64,000 bases of DNA from Muribaculaceae bacterium (lineage in GTDB: Bacteria; Bacteroidota; Bacteroidia; Bacteroidales; Muribaculaceae): positions 1-64,000 of the forward strand of contig JAFYYG010000066.1 in NCBI GenBank assembly GCA_017557625.1, in the 5' to 3' direction. Below are positions 50,893 to 62,150 of this stretch, piece by piece. How positions within the stretch are numbered: the stretch's first letter is position 1; every line of letters starts with the position of its first letter. A program made the position numbers and the translations under genes. Under the pieces are notes generated by a model, which was not told where the DNA came from, searched no databases, and saw only the letters and a program-made list of their open reading frames with translations.

Positions 50893-51402
50893 ATGAAAAA
50901 ATTAATTGCATTAATGTGCGTGGGAGCTATCGCTCTCGCAGGTATCAATGGTTTTGATGCCCAAGCAAAAAAGAAAAGAACCAATAAAAAAGTTGCCAAA
51001 ACTGAGCAAGTAGCTCCAGCCACCAGCACTGAGCAAGCTCAACCAGAGTGCCAGGCTCCTCAAGGCTGCGAGAAGAGCGGCGAAACAAAGCAGCTCAAGA
51101 AAGTTCAAGCCAAAGGCCTCAAGATGACTGAGGGTAGAGAACTCAAGAAAGGCGACTGCAAAGAATTAATGAAAGGCGAGTGCGACAAGAAGGCTGGCGA
51201 GTGCGACAAGAAAGCCGGCGAGTGCGGTAAAAAAGCTGGCGATTGCAAAGAAATGAAAGGCGAATGCAAAGGCGGCGAATGCAAAGGCGGCGAGCATAAA
51301 TGTGCACACCAGTCACCTTGCTGCAAAGAAGGCCCCTGCAAACAGGATGGCAGCTGCGGCAAGCCCAAATGCAAAGAGGACAAAGAGAACTGCTGCAAAT
51401 AA
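50893..51402 (+). CDS. Exported cysteine/lysine-rich repeat protein
   Basis: 169 residues. A signal peptide (KLIALMCVGAIALAGINGF) ends near DAQA. The first half is Lys/Gln/Thr-rich. The second half (about 90-169) has tandem 7-residue units (GECDKKA, GECDKKA, GECGKKA, GDCKEMK), then GECKG, GECKG, and a tail with HKCAHQSPCCKEGPC and CGKPKCKED, ending NCCK. About 18 cysteines occur in about 110 residues, mostly spaced CxxxxxxC or CxxxxC. The composition suggests metal binding in the envelope, metallothionein-like, or redox cross-linking. I know no named family. It stands alone with a good promoter and a strong terminator. Confidence 0.8.
   Translation: MKKLIALMCVGAIALAGINGFDAQAKKKRTNKKVAKTEQVAPATSTEQAQPECQAPQGCEKSGETKQLKKVQAKGLKMTEGRELKKGDCKELMKGECDKKAGECDKKAGECGKKAGDCKEMKGECKGGECKGGEHKCAHQSPCCKEGPCKQDGSCGKPKCKEDKENCCK
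51178..51299 (+). repeat. In-frame 21-bp tandem repeats
   Basis: GGCGAGTGCGACAAGAAGGCT and near copies follow one another three to four times, then GGCGAATGCAAA and GGCGGCGAATGCAAA units. All are multiples of three within the cysteine/lysine repeat gene, so copy number could change without breaking the frame. Confidence 0.8.
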
Positions 51403-53853: not shown

Positions 53854-54157
53854 TATTTCGTATTTTTTAAATCAAGGTGCAAAATTACTGCTTTTTTTGG
53901 AATTATAATTAAGGAGATGGCATTTTTTAAGTTTTAAGTTATAGATGATAAGTTTTAAAAGCCTAGAATGCCCCCTGGTTTCTATTTCTGATTACGGGTT
54001 TTTTACTACAAAACAGTTATTTAAACACTACATCAAAATTTTGCAATATTTATTCTGTCACTACATAGGTGGTCATAATAGATTATATATCAGTTATATG
54101 AAATCAAGCATAACACAGCAGAGATTTTCATAGCCTGAACATTAAACACACAATATG

Positions 54158-54189
54158 TTTGCATATTTTATTTTTATGTTGTATTTTTG
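54158..54189 (+). promoter_or_regulatory. Promoter of the DUF47 / PiT-HTH locus
   Basis: TTTG (54158-54161), a 20-base spacer and TATTTTTG (54182-54189), a full consensus match, 27 bases before the ATG at 54217. The rest of the 360-base gap back to glyS is A/T-rich, and I see nothing else in it. Confidence 0.7.
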
Positions 54190-54216: not shown

Positions 54217-54864
54217 ATGTTTGGACAGAAGAAAACAAATAAGACAATAAGTGACCTTGATAGCTTTCTCGACTATCTGGATGAGTGTGTGCTCACCTAC
54301 AAAAGCGGCATCAAGAACTACCTTGAGGGCAATAAAAAGGAGTTTGACGACAACCTCGAGAACATCACACGGCTGCGTGACACCACCACCGAGCTTCGCC
54401 GCACCATAGAGAACGAACTATACAGCTACTCTCTTGTCACCGACCAGCGTGTGGAGATTATGCAGCTGCTAGAGCGTCTTGACATGATTATCAATCTGTT
54501 GCACAAGAACTTGTGGCAGTATGAGATAGAAATCCCCTTTTTCCCGTCGGAGCTCAATATCGACTTCCTAAAACTCGTGGAGGTCACTGGTCTTGCGGTA
54601 GAGGGTACTATTCAGGCGTCGCGCGACTATTTCAAGGCACCACGGTTTGTTGGCGAGAAGACTCATCGCATCTATTTCTTTGAAAAAGAGGTGAGCAAGA
54701 TTGCCCAATCTATCAAACGCAAAGTGTTCCACGAGATGGACAACTTCAAGCTGAGCCAGAAGTTCCACCTGCGCTATTTCACCCTCCACGTCGAGGAACT
54801 TGCCGAGGAGGCCGTGCGAGTTGCCGACCACCTCTCAATAATGGTCATAAAGCTGAACAACTAA
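54217..54864 (+). CDS. DUF47 (PhoU-like) regulator of phosphate transport
   Basis: 215 residues, all helical with charged heptads, as in the DUF47/PhoU-like family (start MFGQKKTNKTISDLDSFLDY; end EELAEEAVRVADHLSIMVIK). DUF47 proteins are normally encoded next to PiT-type low-affinity phosphate transporters and control them. Here the next gene, 25 bases downstream, is a PiT-like membrane protein fused to a DNA-binding domain, so the usual pair is kept in altered form. It probably binds metal/phosphate clusters at the membrane and modulates its partner. It is the first gene after the promoter at 54158-54189. Confidence 0.85.
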   Translation: MFGQKKTNKTISDLDSFLDYLDECVLTYKSGIKNYLEGNKKEFDDNLENITRLRDTTTELRRTIENELYSYSLVTDQRVEIMQLLERLDMIINLLHKNLWQYEIEIPFFPSELNIDFLKLVEVTGLAVEGTIQASRDYFKAPRFVGEKTHRIYFFEKEVSKIAQSIKRKVFHEMDNFKLSQKFHLRYFTLHVEELAEEAVRVADHLSIMVIKLNN

Positions 54865-54889: not shown

Positions 54890-56473
54890 ATGGAATTAAC
54901 AGTGTCGATATTGACACTCCTCATGGTGGGAGCGTGGCTGGGATACCGGGAAATTGGAGTTAGTTTCCTGGGTATCCACATCCGCGACATGATATCGACA
55001 CGCTTGTTCGGCTCAATGCAGTTTCTGGTAGTGGCAGCATTTATTCTCGGAGCCTATGTGATAAATGTCAATTTCCATACTGTACCAGAAGGGTCCACAT
55101 TAACTATTATAGAGGCATCGGAGATTTTGTGTGCTATGGTTATTACAATCGCCATAGTGCGTGCCGCAAATCAATACACCTCGGCAATCACTGCTTTTTG
55201 GGGAGCCTTGATAGCATTTGGGATAGAATGCAACTGGTTCAACAACATCTCTTTAGTGGTTGCCTTGCTGATTTCGCTGATAGCTGCGCCCGTAGTTGGC
55301 ACACTGCTGTTCTATATTTACCGTAGAATTTTCAACCACATTATATTTAAAAGCGACCATCACCTGCTCATCAAGAACCTTTACATGAAGCGCCTGGCAC
55401 TCGTGGGCATCATCCTCGGCGGCGTGCTCCTTGCAGTAAATTATGCCTTACTCATTGCCCCGATGCTAAAAAGTGTGGCAACCGAGATGAAATCAATCTC
55501 ACTAATTTCAATAGCCATTGTCGCCATTGTGATGAGTGCGGTGATGATAATTCCCGCTGCCACCGTACTGCGTAATGAGAATTATGGTGCTAAGCTAATG
55601 CGGTGGGCATTGCCGTCGCTTTATGCACTAATCACAGTACTGTTGGCAGGCAATGTGGCGGGAACCCTATTGCTGGGATTGGTGCCAGTGATAGTGTCGC
55701 CGAGCCAAATCAGGGAATGCTGCAAGATTTCAACGAGCTACCGCCACCGTAGCCTAATAAACCTTGCAAGCATCACTATTGCAACCCCAGTCATTGCATT
55801 CTTGATAGCCTATATAATGCTGACAGTCGTGAAGAATTCACTTATAATGCTGATTGTAACATTCTTTGCACTCATCACTTGTTTGCTTTTAATACAGAAT
55901 TCCCGACAGAGACGCAAGCGCACTCAAACCGAGAAAGCCCTCAACGACGAGCTCACCCACAGCAGCGAGACTGGCGACGAGCGCAACCGCCTTGATGTCG
56001 CCGCCGTCACGTCACAGTTTAATGTGATGACCAGCGAAATCGACATTAAGCATAAAGAGTTAGTAAACCTTTCATTATATATCAAGCAGCAACGTCAGTA
56101 CCTCGAAGACCTGAGTAAGAATCTTAACGATTTGTCGGAAGAGGATGACGTGGAATTTCTGCGCCAGCAACTGCGCGAGACAGCGCAAAAACTCAACGAT
56201 AACATGCGGCTCACCGATGAGATGGACCAATTCTACAATCAGGTGGAGGACCTCCACAAGAACTTCGTGAGCCGCCTGATTATGCGTTGTGGCACCTTGT
56301 CGGAGAAGGAGAAGCGTCTGGCGATAATGCTGCGCCTGGGCTTCTCCAGCAAAGACATCGCGGGCATGATGAACGTAGAGCCCAAGAGCGTGGAAGTGAG
56401 CCGCTACCGCTTCCGCCGAAAGCTAAAGCTTGACCGCAGCGTCAATATCGTGGAATATCTGCAAATGATATGA
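54890..56473 (+). CDS. Degenerate PiT-like membrane domain fused to coiled coil and LuxR-type HTH
   Basis: 527 residues. About 345 N-terminal residues form 9-10 membrane helices. Their order and spacing (FLVVAAFILGAYVINVNF, IEASEILCAMVITIAIVRAA, APVVGTLLFYIYRRIF) follow PiT phosphate transporters, but the GxxND-type and PxSxT/S-type substrate motifs are absent. A basic linker and coiled coil (about 380-465) follow. The C-terminal 60 residues are a LuxR-type HTH (LSEKEKRLAIMLRLGFSSKD, then MNVEPKSVEVSRYRFRRKL) of the Bacteroidetes kind. It appears to be a membrane-tethered transcription factor whose sensor is derived from a transporter. It follows DUF47 and precedes an OprP-type porin, supporting phosphate sensing. 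PiT origin is inferred by pattern; the HTH is clear. Confidence 0.75.
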   Translation: MELTVSILTLLMVGAWLGYREIGVSFLGIHIRDMISTRLFGSMQFLVVAAFILGAYVINVNFHTVPEGSTLTIIEASEILCAMVITIAIVRAANQYTSAITAFWGALIAFGIECNWFNNISLVVALLISLIAAPVVGTLLFYIYRRIFNHIIFKSDHHLLIKNLYMKRLALVGIILGGVLLAVNYALLIAPMLKSVATEMKSISLISIAIVAIVMSAVMIIPAATVLRNENYGAKLMRWALPSLYALITVLLAGNVAGTLLLGLVPVIVSPSQIRECCKISTSYRHRSLINLASITIATPVIAFLIAYIMLTVVKNSLIMLIVTFFALITCLLLIQNSRQRRKRTQTEKALNDELTHSSETGDERNRLDVAAVTSQFNVMTSEIDIKHKELVNLSLYIKQQRQYLEDLSKNLNDLSEEDDVEFLRQQLRETAQKLNDNMRLTDEMDQFYNQVEDLHKNFVSRLIMRCGTLSEKEKRLAIMLRLGFSSKDIAGMMNVEPKSVEVSRYRFRRKLKLDRSVNIVEYLQMI

Positions 56474-56477
56474 GGCA

Positions 56478-56577
56478 GTTCATGGTTCACAGTTCACAGT
56501 TCATAGTTCATAGTTCTCAGTTTTCAGTTCATAGTTCTCAGTTCTCAGTTCATAGTTCTCAGTTCTCAGTTTTAAAA
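56478..56577. repeat. Short direct repeats after the PiT-HTH gene
   Basis: About 100 bases of AGTTCATAGTTCTCAGTTCTC-like units of 7-10 bases with small changes start a few bases after the stop codon. They separate the regulator gene from the porin gene, and no terminator stem is evident. Confidence 0.8.
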
Positions 56578-56645
56578 CTCTATCCATAAATACAAATGAT
56601 ATAATACAGTAAACATCTAATTTATTAACTTAAATGTTTTGTACA

Positions 56646-58010
56646 ATGAAAAAATTATTAACCCTATCCTTTGTGCTGGCACTATCCGCTTGGGGCAGTG
56701 TGTGGGCACAAGAAGAAGACGGGAACGCCACCTACAACCAGTATGGCGTGAAAGTCGACCGTGAAGAGCTGATCTCGGAGCAGCGCAACAACATCCTCAC
56801 GTTTGAATCTAAGAACAAGGAGTATCGCCTGTGGTTTGACAACCGCGTTCAAGTTGACGGCGCCATGTTCTTTGGAAACAACGAAGACTACAACCCCATT
56901 GGCAACAATGTCTCCATCCGCCGTGCACGCTTTGCCGTTAAGGCTCGCTTGCCTCACAACTGGTATGGCGAGGTTGACGTGGACTTTGCTGACGGCAAGT
57001 TTGAACTCAAGGACGCAATCGTGCAGTTCGACGGCATCCCCAACGTGTCAATCAAGGCCGGTAACTTCAAGGAAGACTTCTCGATGGAGCAGACCACCTC
57101 GTCGCGCTACCTGACCTTCATGGAGCGCCCAATGGTATGTAAAGCTCTCGTGCCTTCGCGCCACCTTGGTCTCCAGATTGCTTACCTGCGTGACCATTTC
57201 CGCGCAACTGGTGGTGTGTTCTTCCAGACTATAGCTGGCGAGGAGGAACTTACCAACGTCCAGGACAACAACAAGGACTATGGCCGCAATCAAGGTTACT
57301 CGTTCACCGGTAAAATCGGTTGGATGCCCTATGCAAACGACCGCAGCTGGGGTCTGTACTTAGGAGGTAAGGCTTCTTACCGCACCCCAAAGACTGAGGA
57401 TGCTCCAGCCGAATGGGGCGGAATGCGTTTCAGCACCCGTAACGCAACCAGCATCAACCGCAAGAAATATCTTGACACCGACGTAATCAAAGACGTTGAC
57501 CACAACGTGCTCTATGGTCTTGAGGGAGCTGCATATTATGGTCCCGCTCGCATCCAGAGTGAGTGGATTCAAACCAATGTAGATGCTGCCGCGAACAACT
57601 ACAAATTCAATGGCTGGTATGTTCATGCATCCTGCCTCCTCTTTGGTGGTAAGCAGCGCTTCAACACCGCCGAGGGCGAGTTCACTCAGCCTTCCCGCGG
57701 TCGCAAGTGGGGTGACATCGAGCTCGCAGTTCGCTACGACTATCTGAACCTCAACAACAAGGACGTGTATGGTGGTTCTGGCGAGAACTTCACCGTAGGT
57801 CTTAACTACTGGATTAACAACAGCGTTAAGATTGTTCTCAACTATCAGTACTCTAACAACGACCGTTACGCCAACGGCAAGGGCAAACTACTTGTTGGTC
57901 ACGATGTCAACGGCAAGCCTACTGCCGACTACACCAAAGTCACTGAGGCTAAGGGCAAAGGTGGTGTGAACTACAGCATGTTGGGTCTTCGCTTAGAGGT
58001 TAACTTCTAA
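56646..58010 (+). CDS. OprO/OprP-type (phosphate-selective) porin
   Basis: 454 residues from MKKLLTLSFVLALSAWGSVWA, a signal peptide; an ATG four codons earlier is less likely. The beta-barrel pattern of the porin O/P family is clear: YRLWFDNRVQVDGAMFF, NVSIRRARFAVKARLPHNWY, DVDFADGKFELKDA, SIKAGNFKEDFSMEQTTSSR, and the final strand MLGLRLEVNF with terminal Phe. Members admit phosphate or polyphosphate across the outer membrane. It follows the DUF47/PiT-HTH pair, which may control it. Specificity cannot be read from sequence alone. Confidence 0.9.
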   Translation: MKKLLTLSFVLALSAWGSVWAQEEDGNATYNQYGVKVDREELISEQRNNILTFESKNKEYRLWFDNRVQVDGAMFFGNNEDYNPIGNNVSIRRARFAVKARLPHNWYGEVDVDFADGKFELKDAIVQFDGIPNVSIKAGNFKEDFSMEQTTSSRYLTFMERPMVCKALVPSRHLGLQIAYLRDHFRATGGVFFQTIAGEEELTNVQDNNKDYGRNQGYSFTGKIGWMPYANDRSWGLYLGGKASYRTPKTEDAPAEWGGMRFSTRNATSINRKKYLDTDVIKDVDHNVLYGLEGAAYYGPARIQSEWIQTNVDAAANNYKFNGWYVHASCLLFGGKQRFNTAEGEFTQPSRGRKWGDIELAVRYDYLNLNNKDVYGGSGENFTVGLNYWINNSVKIVLNYQYSNNDRYANGKGKLLVGHDVNGKPTADYTKVTEAKGKGGVNYSMLGLRLEVNF

Positions 58011-58043: not shown

Positions 58044-58898
58044 ATGAAAACTATAAAGTTATTATTCGTGGCACTTCTCGCAGTGGCGATGACAGCCTGC
58101 GTTGAGGATAAAGTATATGAGGGTCCTAACACTATTGAAGCTGTGTCGATTAATCCCGATGCTCCAACTTCGTTTGACGACGTGGTTGTAACAGCAAAGG
58201 TGTCGGGCTTATTAGATGTTACTAAAGCCGTTCTGCGTTATTCTGTAAATGATGATTTCGTTGAGGAACTAGATATGGATGGCAATGGCACCACTTACAC
58301 CGCTACCATTCCTGCTCAAGAAGATGGCACTAAAGTTAACTATGTTGTAATCATCACCAACGAGGCTGGCTACACCACCACTGCTGAACGTGAATACACT
58401 GTAGGCGACAAACCAAGTGATTATACTAAACTTGTAATCAACGAGTTGTATGGAGCAGGTGAGGATGGCGAGAAATATATCGAGCTATACAATATAGGTG
58501 ATGACCCCATCAAACTTGATGGCGTAACAATCAAAAAAGACGAAGCTTTGACTTGGACCGGCGAGAAAAACGAAGTCATCATGGGTCATAGCTACTTCTT
58601 GATTGTTGGTGCCAGCAATGTGGCTGGTGAGGGAGGTAGTGGACCAAATCCACGTCCTATGATTAAGGGTTTGTCGGCCAAAAAGACAGTACTTATTGAG
58701 CTCTTCAATCCTCAAGGCGAGGTCATCAACAAGTTCCAACGTGGCGAGAAGGGCGACGGCTGGGGAGCTACCATAAGCAAAAATGACAAGACTTGGAGCC
58801 GCTGTCCTAATGGCACTGGCAAGTTCATGATCGCCGACAAGACATTTGGAACCAAGAACCCCGACACCGGTACCGAAGACGCAACTGTAGTACAGTAA
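58044..58898 (+). CDS. Lipoprotein with Ig-like and lamin-tail domains
   Basis: 284 residues. The lipoprotein signal ends at VAMTAC (Cys19). An Ig-like domain (about 30-125) is followed by a lamin-tail domain (about 130-275; LVINELYGAGEDGEKYIELY, IGDDPIKLDGVTI). In bacteria lamin-tail domains occur on secreted nucleases, phosphatases and surface proteins. It starts 33 bases after the porin and ends at a terminator, so the two form one transcript, and it may be the porin's surface partner. Confidence 0.85.
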   Translation: MKTIKLLFVALLAVAMTACVEDKVYEGPNTIEAVSINPDAPTSFDDVVVTAKVSGLLDVTKAVLRYSVNDDFVEELDMDGNGTTYTATIPAQEDGTKVNYVVIITNEAGYTTTAEREYTVGDKPSDYTKLVINELYGAGEDGEKYIELYNIGDDPIKLDGVTIKKDEALTWTGEKNEVIMGHSYFLIVGASNVAGEGGSGPNPRPMIKGLSAKKTVLIELFNPQGEVINKFQRGEKGDGWGATISKNDKTWSRCPNGTGKFMIADKTFGTKNPDTGTEDATVVQ

Positions 58899-59008: not shown

Positions 59009-59653
59009 ATGGCAAAAGAAGAATTAAAGATTGGTGAAATTTCTAAACCACGTTTTGAGTTCCGCAGCTTCGGTCGCTGCTTCTGTGAGGCCGGCAAGCG
59101 CATGGCACGACTGAGCGTTCCTGTTCCCGAGAAAGTGTGGGAGCGCCACAGCACCGAGACCTACATCGTTAGCCGCACCAACGACGTGAACAACACCAAG
59201 ATACGCAACGGCAAGATGGATATCAAGACCTTTGTGCAAGCCGTTGACGGCCTTGAGCAGTGGAATCCACTGATGAAGGGCGAGTTCCCCATCAGCGCGC
59301 AAGTGTTGAAAGAGGAAGTGTTCCCAGCTTTCAAAGTTGAGGGCATGCCCGAGCTCACAAAGGACGAATATACCCTCGAGGAGTTCCTTCAGATGATTGA
59401 CGAGCATCCCGACTTGCAGGCTGTGACCGTTGAGAAGGCCCGCTATGGCTACATGGTAAACGACACCATCTGCGAGACTGGCGAGGTTTACATCAACGGC
59501 GCTATGGTTCGCACCATCAACAGCGAGAGCACCGAGATTGAGGATATCAAGAAGACCATCGCCGATTGTGGTCTCGAGGGCGTTGAGAACATCAACTACC
59601 TGCAAGCCATCAAACGTGTAATTGGTATGATTAACAAACCTCTGGCGAATTAA
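59009..59653 (+). CDS. Conserved protein of unknown function, possible CYTH/VTC-like fold
   Basis: 214 residues, with no signal peptide and no membrane segment. The central stretch ETYIVSRTNDVNNTKIRNGK followed by MDIKTFVQAVDGLEQWNP has the alternating charged strand pattern and KIR...K residues seen in triphosphate-tunnel (CYTH/VTC) proteins. The C-terminus (TEIEDIKKTIADCGLEGVEN) is helical. The assignment is only a pattern match, helped by a true CYTH gene next door. It begins 49 bases after the porin-operon terminator. Its function is unknown. If it is VTC-like, the substrate would be polyphosphate or a triphosphate. Confidence 0.6.
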   Translation: MAKEELKIGEISKPRFEFRSFGRCFCEAGKRMARLSVPVPEKVWERHSTETYIVSRTNDVNNTKIRNGKMDIKTFVQAVDGLEQWNPLMKGEFPISAQVLKEEVFPAFKVEGMPELTKDEYTLEEFLQMIDEHPDLQAVTVEKARYGYMVNDTICETGEVYINGAMVRTINSESTEIEDIKKTIADCGLEGVENINYLQAIKRVIGMINKPLAN

Positions 59654-59766: not shown

Positions 59767-60237
59767 ATGGCACAAGAAATAGAAAGAAAATTCCTTGTAA
59801 AAGGCGATTTTAAGGATGAGGCTTTCAAGGCCACACGCATCATTCAGGGCTATTTGAGTTCAGTTCCCGAGCGCACTGTACGCGTGCGTGTTAAAGGCGA
59901 GAAAGGCTTCATTACAGTCAAGGGCATAGGCAACGAGAGTGGTGCCAGCCGCTTTGAATGGGAGAAAGAGATTCCCGCCGACGAGGTTATGGAGCTGCTT
60001 AAGATTTGCGAGCCTGGCGTTATCGACAAGACCCGCTATCTGGTGAAAGCCGGCGAGCGCACTTTCGAGGTTGACGAGTTCTACGGCGACAACGACGGAC
60101 TAACAGTTGCCGAAGTGGAGTTGCCCAGCGAAGATGCCGAGTTTGACCGCCCTGCCTGGCTTGGCGAGGAGGTTACCGGTGACGTGAAGTACTACAACTC
60201 TATGCTCATGAAGAACCCCTATAAGAACTGGAAATAA
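59767..60237 (+). CDS. CYTH-domain triphosphate tunnel metalloenzyme
   Basis: 156 residues. The signature ExExK is present as Glu4-Ile-Glu6-Arg-Lys8 (MAQEIERKFLV). It is followed by RTVRVRVKGEKGFITVKG, SRFEWEKEIP, KTRYLV and FEVDEFYGDNDGLTVAEVEL, which supply the lysine, arginine and acidic residues that line the tunnel. Small bacterial CYTH enzymes usually hydrolyse inorganic tripolyphosphate, or sometimes make cAMP or act on thiamine triphosphate. It sits among phosphate-related genes, which favours tripolyphosphatase activity. Confidence 0.92.
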   Translation: MAQEIERKFLVKGDFKDEAFKATRIIQGYLSSVPERTVRVRVKGEKGFITVKGIGNESGASRFEWEKEIPADEVMELLKICEPGVIDKTRYLVKAGERTFEVDEFYGDNDGLTVAEVELPSEDAEFDRPAWLGEEVTGDVKYYNSMLMKNPYKNWK

Positions 60238-60428: not shown

Positions 60429-62150
60429 ATGGCGGAAGAGACAATCAAGCAAGAGGAGCATTTCGATCCTCTTGACATGAATAACTACAAGCTCGAGAAA
60501 CTGCCCAAGATGCAGAAATCGGGCTTCGAGAAGATATTACAACGCATAGGCGGGCCTCTGGCGATTCTCGTCTTTGTGGTCATCTATTTCTTTGCCGATA
60601 TTCCTTTCATAAACAATATCGATACCAACAAGGAGACCACACAACTTGCCGAGGGTGCCGTGAAACGCTATGACGAGATGTATAAGAAGGCCGAAAAGAA
60701 AATCGCGGTAGAAGTTGACAAAAGCGGCAAGGAGACCAAACGAGAACTCACCGATGCCGAGAAGCAACAACTCACCGCCGACACCCACGACAACTTCTTA
60801 CACATCAACTATGCGATGCTAGCAATATTTGCCGCCGCCATTATCCTGTGGATTACTGAAGCCATCCCCAACTACCTCACGTCGCTAATCGTCATAATGT
60901 CGATAGTGCTGACCGGGGTGACGAGCGACAAGGAGGCCTATGCCCAGCTGGGACACCCGGTGATGTGGCTCAACATCCTGTCGTTCATCTTGGCGAGTAT
61001 GCTTGTCAAGACGCAAGTGGCAAAGCGATTCGCGCTATGGTTTGTGATTAAATTCGGCAAGAGCACGAACGGCATAATCTTGAGCTTTATTGTCATCAAC
61101 ATCGTGCTCTCGGCATTTATCTCGGCAACTACCGCCAAGGCTGCCATATTGTTGCCCATCTTCATGGTAGTGGCTGCCATCTATGGCGCCAGCAAGGGTA
61201 ATCGCAACAACTTTGGCCGAAACTTGGTGCTCCAGAACCTGTTCCAGATTAACTTAGGAGCCAACTCCTTCCTCACCGGTTCGGGCGCCACACTGCTTGC
61301 AGGAGCACTTATCGGTGGCGCGCTGGGCATCGGCTCCATCAGCTACCAAAACTGGTTCATGGCTGCATTCCCCATGAACATCATCCTCATCTTCATCGGT
61401 TGGTTCGTAGGTTCCAAAATTTTCTTCCCTCTCAAAAAGGAAGAGCGTGTGCCTCAGATTGAAGGCGGCATGGACCGACTACGCGACGAGCTGCACAAAC
61501 TTGGCAAAATGAGTGGAGAGGAATACAGGGCAGTAGCGATTTTCGTGACAGTGCTACTTTTGTGGGCTACCGGAGATTATCATGGTATTGGTCAGACGGC
61601 AGTCGCCTTTATGGGTGCTGTGGTGGCTTTGCTGCCAAAGATTGGCATCGTGAAGTGGAACGACGTGGATATTCCCTGGCACTTGCTTCTCTTCTCGGCT
61701 GGTGCATATACCCTCGGAGCTGGACTTGAGGCAACTGGTCTGCCTGGCACAATGATAAACGCCTTGTTTGGTGCTCTTGGCATTGGCGAGGGCACTCCAT
61801 TCTGGGTAATATATCTCATCCTCACAGGAAGCATTCTGTTGTTCTCGCTCATCTTTGAGTCGAAGACAATGCTCACGCTCATCTTCGTGCCCATTGCCAT
61901 TGGTGTGGCGCAGAGCAACGGTTACCCCATCATGAGCCTCGCGTTCCCGGTTGCGCTGCTTGTGGGCCATGTTTATGTGCTGCCTTTCAACAGCAAGCCC
62001 GCCGCTCTTCTCTACACCACCAACCAGTACAGCATCAGCGACACCTTCAAGTTTGGTATCACCATGATGTTCATCAGCTGGCTGATGATAATCGTGTGGG
62101 GCGATACCGTGCTGAGGTGGTTCGGTTATACCGATGGAGTGTTCTTTTAA
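60429..62150 (+). CDS. DASS/SLC13-family anion:sodium symporter
   Basis: 573 residues. A charged cytoplasmic N-terminus (about 1-35) and one helix are followed by a lysine/glutamate-rich loop (about 75-120). The two-repeat transporter core has 11 or so helices and the motifs ITEAIPNYLTSLIVIM, FISATTAKAAILLPI and NSKPAALLYTTNQYS. The family moves dicarboxylates, sulfate or, in fungi, phosphate (PHO87/90/91 type) with sodium. The setting beside a porin O/P, DUF47 and CYTH genes suggests phosphate or a related anion, but dicarboxylate remains possible. The gene follows the CYTH gene after the MITE-like element. Confidence 0.88.
   Translation: MAEETIKQEEHFDPLDMNNYKLEKLPKMQKSGFEKILQRIGGPLAILVFVVIYFFADIPFINNIDTNKETTQLAEGAVKRYDEMYKKAEKKIAVEVDKSGKETKRELTDAEKQQLTADTHDNFLHINYAMLAIFAAAIILWITEAIPNYLTSLIVIMSIVLTGVTSDKEAYAQLGHPVMWLNILSFILASMLVKTQVAKRFALWFVIKFGKSTNGIILSFIVINIVLSAFISATTAKAAILLPIFMVVAAIYGASKGNRNNFGRNLVLQNLFQINLGANSFLTGSGATLLAGALIGGALGIGSISYQNWFMAAFPMNIILIFIGWFVGSKIFFPLKKEERVPQIEGGMDRLRDELHKLGKMSGEEYRAVAIFVTVLLLWATGDYHGIGQTAVAFMGAVVALLPKIGIVKWNDVDIPWHLLLFSAGAYTLGAGLEATGLPGTMINALFGALGIGEGTPFWVIYLILTGSILLFSLIFESKTMLTLIFVPIAIGVAQSNGYPIMSLAFPVALLVGHVYVLPFNSKPAALLYTTNQYSISDTFKFGITMMFISWLMIIVWGDTVLRWFGYTDGVFF

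Follow-up and report, generated by a model that had tools for sequence, protein, structure and literature searches.

A PiT-derived membrane domain fused to a LuxR-type DNA-binding domain in Muribaculaceae: a probable DUF47-coupled regulator of its own operon

In the current analysis we have identified a protein of 527 residues in which a membrane domain descended from the PiT family of transporters is followed by a predicted coiled coil and a C-terminal LuxR-type helix-turn-helix (HTH). It is encoded on the forward strand at 54890-56473 of the window, the stretch of 64,000 nucleotides of Muribaculaceae DNA considered here, and the open frame is real. This protein is, on balance, best viewed as a membrane-bound one-component regulator of its own operon, derived from PiT and coupled to a DUF47 protein, a reading to which we give somewhat better than even confidence on the basis of sequence comparisons. 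In this rumen-type bacterium a descendant of the PiT transporters thus carries a DNA-binding domain at its C-terminus, and the protein probably responds to an ion at the membrane by direct switching of its own transport operon. The state of a nutrient transporter often reaches the genes by way of a kinase; in the present case a domain of transporter origin is joined in a single chain to a DNA-binding domain, and the neighbouring gene encodes DUF47, the known accessory protein of such transporters. No report of a PiT-LuxR fusion came up in searches of the open-licence PMC literature.

Simple hydropathy places the hydrophobic stretches of the fusion within residues 1-339, at approximately 1-19, 34-65, 69-94, 114-145, 163-198, 195-229, 236-274 and 287-339, the last being long enough for two helices. 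They are followed by a basic stretch and then by a long, strongly conserved linker. The coiled coil has been judged from the sequence and from weak matches to coiled-coil families rather than with a coiled-coil program. The C-terminal region passes the cut-off of the GerE profile (Table 1), which makes the LuxR-type HTH recognised in an earlier sequence-only reading of this DNA a firm assignment. LuxR-type membrane regulators of Bacteroidota with TPR or other long sensors have the same kind of C-terminal coiled coil and HTH; in those looked at, the remaining parts are TPR-like or short with one or a few transmembrane stretches, whereas in the window protein this part is PiT-derived. A stand-alone protein of 206 residues with the order transmembrane segment, coiled coil and LuxR HTH is encoded at 1363-1983 of locus L030 (genome G046) and represents an output module devoid of a sensor domain.

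Table 1. Features of the fusion gene, its upstream region and the neighbouring genes in the window
Feature	Coordinates	Strand	Basis
Candidate operator, three ACTACA direct repeats at 54005, 54027 and 54060	54005..54065	+	Middle repeat fits ACNCTACA; conserved in otherwise diverged DNA
Promoter-like TTTG-N20-TAnnTTTG upstream of DUF47	54158..54189	+	Same pattern in 28/29 upstream regions, not in L070
DUF47 / PhoU_div protein, 215 aa (PitR type)	54217..54864	+	PF01865 43.6 bits, cut-off 24.4; 28/28 loci
Degenerate PiT-like membrane domain and last transmembrane segment, residues 1-339	54890..55906	+	hhalign, profile searches, joint alignment
Linker and predicted coiled coil, residues 340-467	55907..56290	+	Sequence; conserved in 28 aligned proteins
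LuxR/GerE-type HTH, residues 469-522	56294..56455	+	PF00196 28.5 bits, cut-off 23.5
Porin O/P-family outer membrane protein	56634..58010	+	PF07396 152.1 bits, cut-off 20.9; 27/28 loci
LTD (lamin tail domain) protein, lipoprotein-like start	58044..58898	+	PF00932 43.1 bits; 25/28 loci
c5, 214 aa, no family assigned	59009..59653	+	No Pfam or PHROGs match; 24/28 loci
CYTH-domain protein	59767..60237	+	PF01928 53.8 bits, cut-off 23.2; 23/28 loci
DASS/SLC13-type anion symporter	60429..62150	+	PF00939 196.4 bits; TIGR00785 215.9 bits, cut-off 198.6; 23/28 loci

The ancestry of the membrane part was followed with a profile made from the membrane parts of 28 proteins of the window type (A4). Searched against 393 genomes of the order, A4 matches the window protein and three PiT proteins only (E-values of 9.6e-7, 8.7e-5 and 6.9e-4, per genome). 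All three PiT proteins are encoded directly after a DUF47 gene and carry a C-terminal extension with a further transmembrane segment and a coiled coil. In profile-profile comparison by hhalign, A4 is colinear with eight such PiT domains (columns 71-311 to 78-342, score 52.9, P 1.7e-6), and it aligns with nine PiT proteins of the order over 103 columns in the second half of PiT (score 46.3, P 1.8e-5). The reversed PiT profiles score 10.8 and 16.4, and 60 block-permuted versions of each score at most 18.7. The hhalign comparison covers residues from about 77 onwards, and the register of the N-terminal part is uncertain. The relationship to PiT that had been proposed from the sequence alone is upheld, and no placement of the membrane part in an unrelated family was found. 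Five window-type proteins were scanned with PHO4 (PF01384): the ortholog L094 matches at E 3.4e-7 with 30.0 bits, below the cut-off of 33.7, and the window protein, L005, L089 and L007 show no match. A search of the membrane profile against PDB sequences with hmmsearch returned weak matches to Pannexin-1 (E-value 0.31 and worse) and not the PiT structure 6L85. The membrane part is firmly assigned, by these comparisons, as a degenerate PiT-derived domain. Since the fusion falls short of the PiT profile cut-off and of the PiT signatures, it is not classed among the PiT transporters in spite of its descent from them.

Residues of the transport motifs were counted in a joint alignment of the 28 window-type rows with 15 PiT rows. 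The Asp of the first GAND signature is replaced by Phe or Tyr in all 28 proteins. The D/N position of the second signature, which is Asn in 11 and Asp in 4 of the PiT rows, is likewise occupied by Tyr, Phe or Ser in all 28, and neither of the two GANDVANA-type signatures is intact in window-type proteins. The serine of the first STSQ/STTH motif (S98) is kept in 28/28, that of the second motif (S270) in 25/28 and the Asn of the second signature (N184) in 27/28; the two serines may be the counterparts of S113 and S593 of human PiT2. Positions S98, G105, A133-P134 and H158-L160 are invariant in 28/28. An alternative N-terminal register would put E21 at the place of the first signature Asp. For human PiT2, the aspartates D28 and D506 of the signatures and the serines S113 and S593 are described as critical for transport (extract of PMC3126765). 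The earlier view of PiT-like helices devoid of substrate motifs is therefore correct as to the PiT homology and the lost signatures, but not as to the two serines and the Asn, most of which are kept. With the signature Asp and D/N residues lost and the serines and Asn retained, the window protein has probably lost transport and probably retains a part of the anion site.

Of the 101 genomes examined from the window's genus, 20 contain the whole fusion, always as an open frame without stops. Scanning of named genomes with a DUF47 alignment, which retrieves near DUF47 relatives only, gave 28 loci. They come mostly from rumen MAGs labelled Muribaculaceae, Prevotellaceae, Porphyromonadaceae or Bacteroidales and also include Prevotella, e.g. 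oral taxon 376 and P. aff. ruminicola Tc2-24. DUF47 lies directly before the fusion in all 28 loci, the contig of L093 stopping within the fusion, and the porin follows in the other 27. The order DUF47-fusion-porin noted for the window by the sequence-only reading thus recurs in these loci. An assembly error as the source of the fusion is ruled out by the 20 genus genomes and by the 28 loci from separate records, and homologues that encode the membrane and HTH parts as separate genes, the other outcome that would have spoken against the earlier reading, were not encountered. The complete seven-gene order is intact in 23/28 loci, the other five (L070, L079, L087, L093 and L095) ending early. 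The c5 protein shows 85-98% identity over 24 loci and its gene is among the best conserved of the module; the c5 copy of L187 has no match in Pfam or NCBIfam.

A survey of 61 genomes, 37 of them from the window's genus, revealed the fusion in 7 of the 37, and the same 7 carry the adjoining stand-alone DUF47 gene. A PF01384 match is found in 0/7 fusion genomes as against 4/30 other genus genomes. Six genus genomes, including the fusion genome G003, have a further DUF47 match that covers part of the model and lies inside frames of about 600 residues. The module was also compared over 16 loci (12 distant and 4 of the window type), all of which have DUF47 with PiT or the fusion. The porin is found in 12 of these loci, DASS, CYTH and c5 in 11 each and LTD in 10, and the gene order varies. 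The DNA taken for L185 and L186 contains no other module genes and that for L183 only CYTH.

In more distant relatives, too, a single chain unites a transporter domain with a signalling output, PHO4 and GerE both being over the cut-off in L142 and L139. L142, a protein of 613 residues, comes from a different family within the same taxonomic class. It scores 191.6 bits with PHO4, its four motifs are all intact, and it has an added transmembrane segment at about 400-426 and GerE at 29.8 bits; its gene is preceded by DUF47 and followed by a porin gene. In L139 (PHO4 137.5 bits, GerE 34.3 bits) the first signature is changed. L140 scores 213.8 bits with PHO4, and its contig ends before the HTH. 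L141 (genome G593) retains intact PiT motifs (PHO4 185.2 bits) and matches the transporter TmPiT (6L85) at E 2.9e-26; its LuxR HTH is eroded and gives no GerE match. L141 is a mirror image of the window protein, and no ACNCTACA repeat, described below, lies upstream of it. The survey of PiT-LuxR proteins scored at most three candidates per genome and may miss some, and for this reason the PiT part alone was used as the query in a later search. PiT relatives adjacent to DUF47 and without HTH were found in 6/198 genomes of the phylum at E-values of 1e-100 or better, to which L041 and L143 are added. All eight match PHO4 and none matches GerE; three of them (L114, L115 and L116) have a C-terminal extension of about 150 residues without a Pfam match. 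As LuxR modules are also attached to PiT domains with intact motifs, it is probable that the transport residues were lost only after the fusion had arisen. The intact (L142), eroded-PiT (L139 and the window protein) and eroded-HTH (L141) relatives would form a natural series.

In a tree of LuxR modules (51 hand-chosen rows; 36 of 38 general LuxR loci passed the length filter), 12 window-type rows form one clade with L139 and L141 (97/97). L142 is left outside this clade of 14 rows, and a grouping of all 15 is not rejected (AU p 0.302). A DUF47 tree of 29 hand-chosen rows shows the window type as one clade (100/100), next to L181 (91/89) and L183 (89/84), and sets this type of DUF47 apart from six DUF47 of ordinary PiT (100/100). 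Fused and unfused rows are intermingled in this tree, the support being weak. Because of the position of L142 and of this mixing, one origin for all PiT-LuxR fusions is not claimed.

Four of the eight loci without HTH (L187, L188, L189 and L191) have three divergent genes beside the module. In L187 these encode, by Pfam, a PhnD-like binding protein, a histidine kinase with sCache domain and a sigma-54 response regulator; in the other three loci the trio has been assigned by clustering. The trio is found in none of the eight fused loci of the 16-locus comparison. It may be a rival way to control the same module genes, and its distribution suggests that the fused HTH may have taken the place of a two-component system encoded apart from it. 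In the DNA that separates the divergent kinase operon from the module in the four loci, a simple pattern search gave no -24/-12 sigma-54 site.

The earlier reading pointed to the DNA upstream of the porin gene as a place to test binding of the HTH. The conserved repeats and the promoter lie upstream of DUF47 instead and the gap between fusion and porin is short (about 30-40 bases in 12 of 15 aligned genus loci), and the porin promoter is rejected as the likely operator. The upstream alignment, made from 15 of the 29 window-type loci, shows direct repeats of (A)ACACTACA followed by the TTTG...TAnnTTTG promoter. This pattern is one that we liken to the -33/-7 consensus of Bacteroidetes.

The ACNCTACA motif was derived from this genus alignment, so that only the other loci test it, and was scanned in the 350 bases upstream in 41 regions (window, L070-L097 and L180-L191). 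A forward site is present in 29/29 window-type loci (one site in 7, two in 13 and three in 9), and one window-type locus has a reverse-strand site. All three distant fusions not known to lack the HTH have the motif (two sites in L180, three in L181 and one in L182). None was found within 350 bases upstream in L183, a fusion with eroded HTH, or in the eight PiT loci without HTH. Shuffled regions have on average at most 0.12 sites. The observed number is reached in 0/200 shuffles for L180 and L181, in 16/200 for L182 and in 0 to 11 of 200 for the seven single-site window-type loci (5-11 for five of them). The repeat spacings of 32-33, 42-45, 54-56 and 87-89 bases are close to multiples of 11, many being inherited within the genus. 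These observations lead to the strong prediction that the fused HTH binds the ACNCTACA repeats.

The paired pattern CACTACA-N13-43-CACTACA matches the DUF47 promoter in 16 of the 20 genomes with the fusion; in genome G000 it has no other match. Over the 101 genus genomes its reversed control is often as frequent (in G000 one match against six for the control), and most of the other matches look, by eye, GC-rich and coding. Single AACACTACA sites are not enriched in G000 (32 against 49 for the reversed-pattern control), and of the 32 matches the 30 whose loci were retrieved, the window promoter included, all lack a second strict site within 130 bases. Owing to the lack of a genome-wide excess or of second sites, no wider regulon is claimed.

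In the mechanism that we infer, as regards ligand, DUF47 contact, topology, DNA binding and sign of regulation, the sensor would be the PiT-family domain with key signature residues lost and part of the anion-site motifs kept. The output would be the coiled coil with the LuxR-type HTH, which the added last transmembrane segment would place in the cytoplasm; PiT proteins have their termini outside the cytoplasm. The DUF47 protein, being of PitR type, may engage the PiT-like domain from its cytoplasmic side, much as PitR cooperates with PitA. When the site is occupied, the protein would be altered in such a way that the HTH binds or leaves the ACNCTACA direct repeats upstream of DUF47. The operon so controlled would comprise DUF47, regulator, porin and LTD and possibly extend to the DASS transporter. 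The context of DUF47 and PiT makes phosphate the first choice as ligand and another oxyanion the second.

In Staphylococcus aureus the DUF47 member of the pit operon is phoU2/pitR (extract of PMC7326077), and PitR with its cognate transporter controls a phosphate two-component system (extract of PMC13170248). The PitR-PitA pair resembles the window in having a DUF47-type accessory gene beside a PiT-family gene; in S. aureus a separate two-component system carries the signal, whereas in the window the HTH is on the PiT-like chain itself. The histidine kinases CbrA and CrbS, of SLC5-STAC type, combine a transporter domain and an output in one chain and are called transceptors in extracts of PMC13022988 and PMC9100948. 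They are described there with an SLC5 domain and a kinase output that acts via a response regulator, unlike the PiT domain and direct DNA-binding domain of the window protein. In its mode of action the window fusion would be comparable to CbrA and other regulators of the transceptor type, except that the HTH would be its direct output. With TmPiT, a phosphate transporter of the PiT/SLC20 family (PDB 6L85), the window protein shares the ancestry of the membrane domain by way of L139-L142; compared with it, the window type has lost signature residues and gained the C-terminal transmembrane segment, coiled coil and HTH.

PstB over the cut-off is found in 0/20 fusion genomes, many of them incomplete assemblies, as against 13/14 control genomes, so that the usual Pst-based read-out of phosphate may be missing. 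The Na/Pi cotransporter PF02690 is present in all 20 fusion genomes, the set in which it was sought and in which many assemblies are incomplete. We put forward tentatively, at slightly less than even confidence, that these proteins form a new class of regulators arising from PiT, in which the L142 type would be transporters with their own transcription-factor C-terminus, so that the state of transport is read directly onto DNA. In the window lineage, which lacks Pst, this arrangement would have become purely a sensor of ions coupled to DUF47. If the model is true, it offers a compact and testable system for how DUF47/PitR proteins read PiT transporters and for how Bacteroidota without Pst sense phosphate.

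There is an appreciable possibility, though a minority one, that the same architecture serves an ion other than phosphate, such as sulfate, a phosphonate- or phosphite-like oxyanion or a substrate shared with DASS. The DASS symporter is part of the module in 23/28 loci, a PhnD-like binding protein gene is divergent from four PiT loci without HTH, and the NCBIfam sulfate permease model matches the PiT part of L142 at 87.6 bits, far below its cut-off of 400; CysP is a sulfate permease of the PiT family. The DUF47 and PiT context favours phosphate, however, as do the PHO4 score of L142 (191.6 bits) and the match of L141 to TmPiT 6L85 (2.9e-26). The fusion could also be still a transporter, with the HTH in a side role such as autoregulation by sequestration, which would agree with the retention of most S98, N184 and S270 residues and with the intact PiT motifs of L142 and L141. 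This is improbable, as the first-signature Asp and the second-signature D/N are lost in 28/28 and D28 and D506 are critical in human PiT2 (extract of PMC3126765).

A PiT-like part that is a mere membrane anchor and dimeriser, the signal coming from DUF47 or elsewhere, would explain why the membrane part diverges faster (mean column identity of 56% in A4 as against 63% for the whole protein). We consider it quite unlikely, because S98, G105, A133-P134 and H158-L160 are invariant in 28/28, which is more than an anchor needs. It is unlikely, too, that the ACNCTACA repeats belong to another regulator and that the fused HTH has its target at some other place or has none. The independent lineages are few, and the single site of L182 is reached in 16/200 shuffles; yet the repeats track the HTH across families, in 3/3 distant fusions against 0/9 loci without HTH (one-sided Fisher 1/220, relatedness ignored), and the paired pattern lies at the DUF47 promoter in 16/20 fusion genomes and is the only match in G000. 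The reading as a PiT-derived, DUF47-coupled regulator of its own operon is the one preferred here.

The window also encodes, at 50893-51402, a protein of 169 residues that has no Pfam match and is rich in Cys and Lys, with repeats of KKAGEC and CKGGEC units. The region between fusion and porin at 56474-56633 contains a tandem repeat of CAGTTCATAGTTCT type, which is absent from 13 other aligned genus loci and shared with L070.
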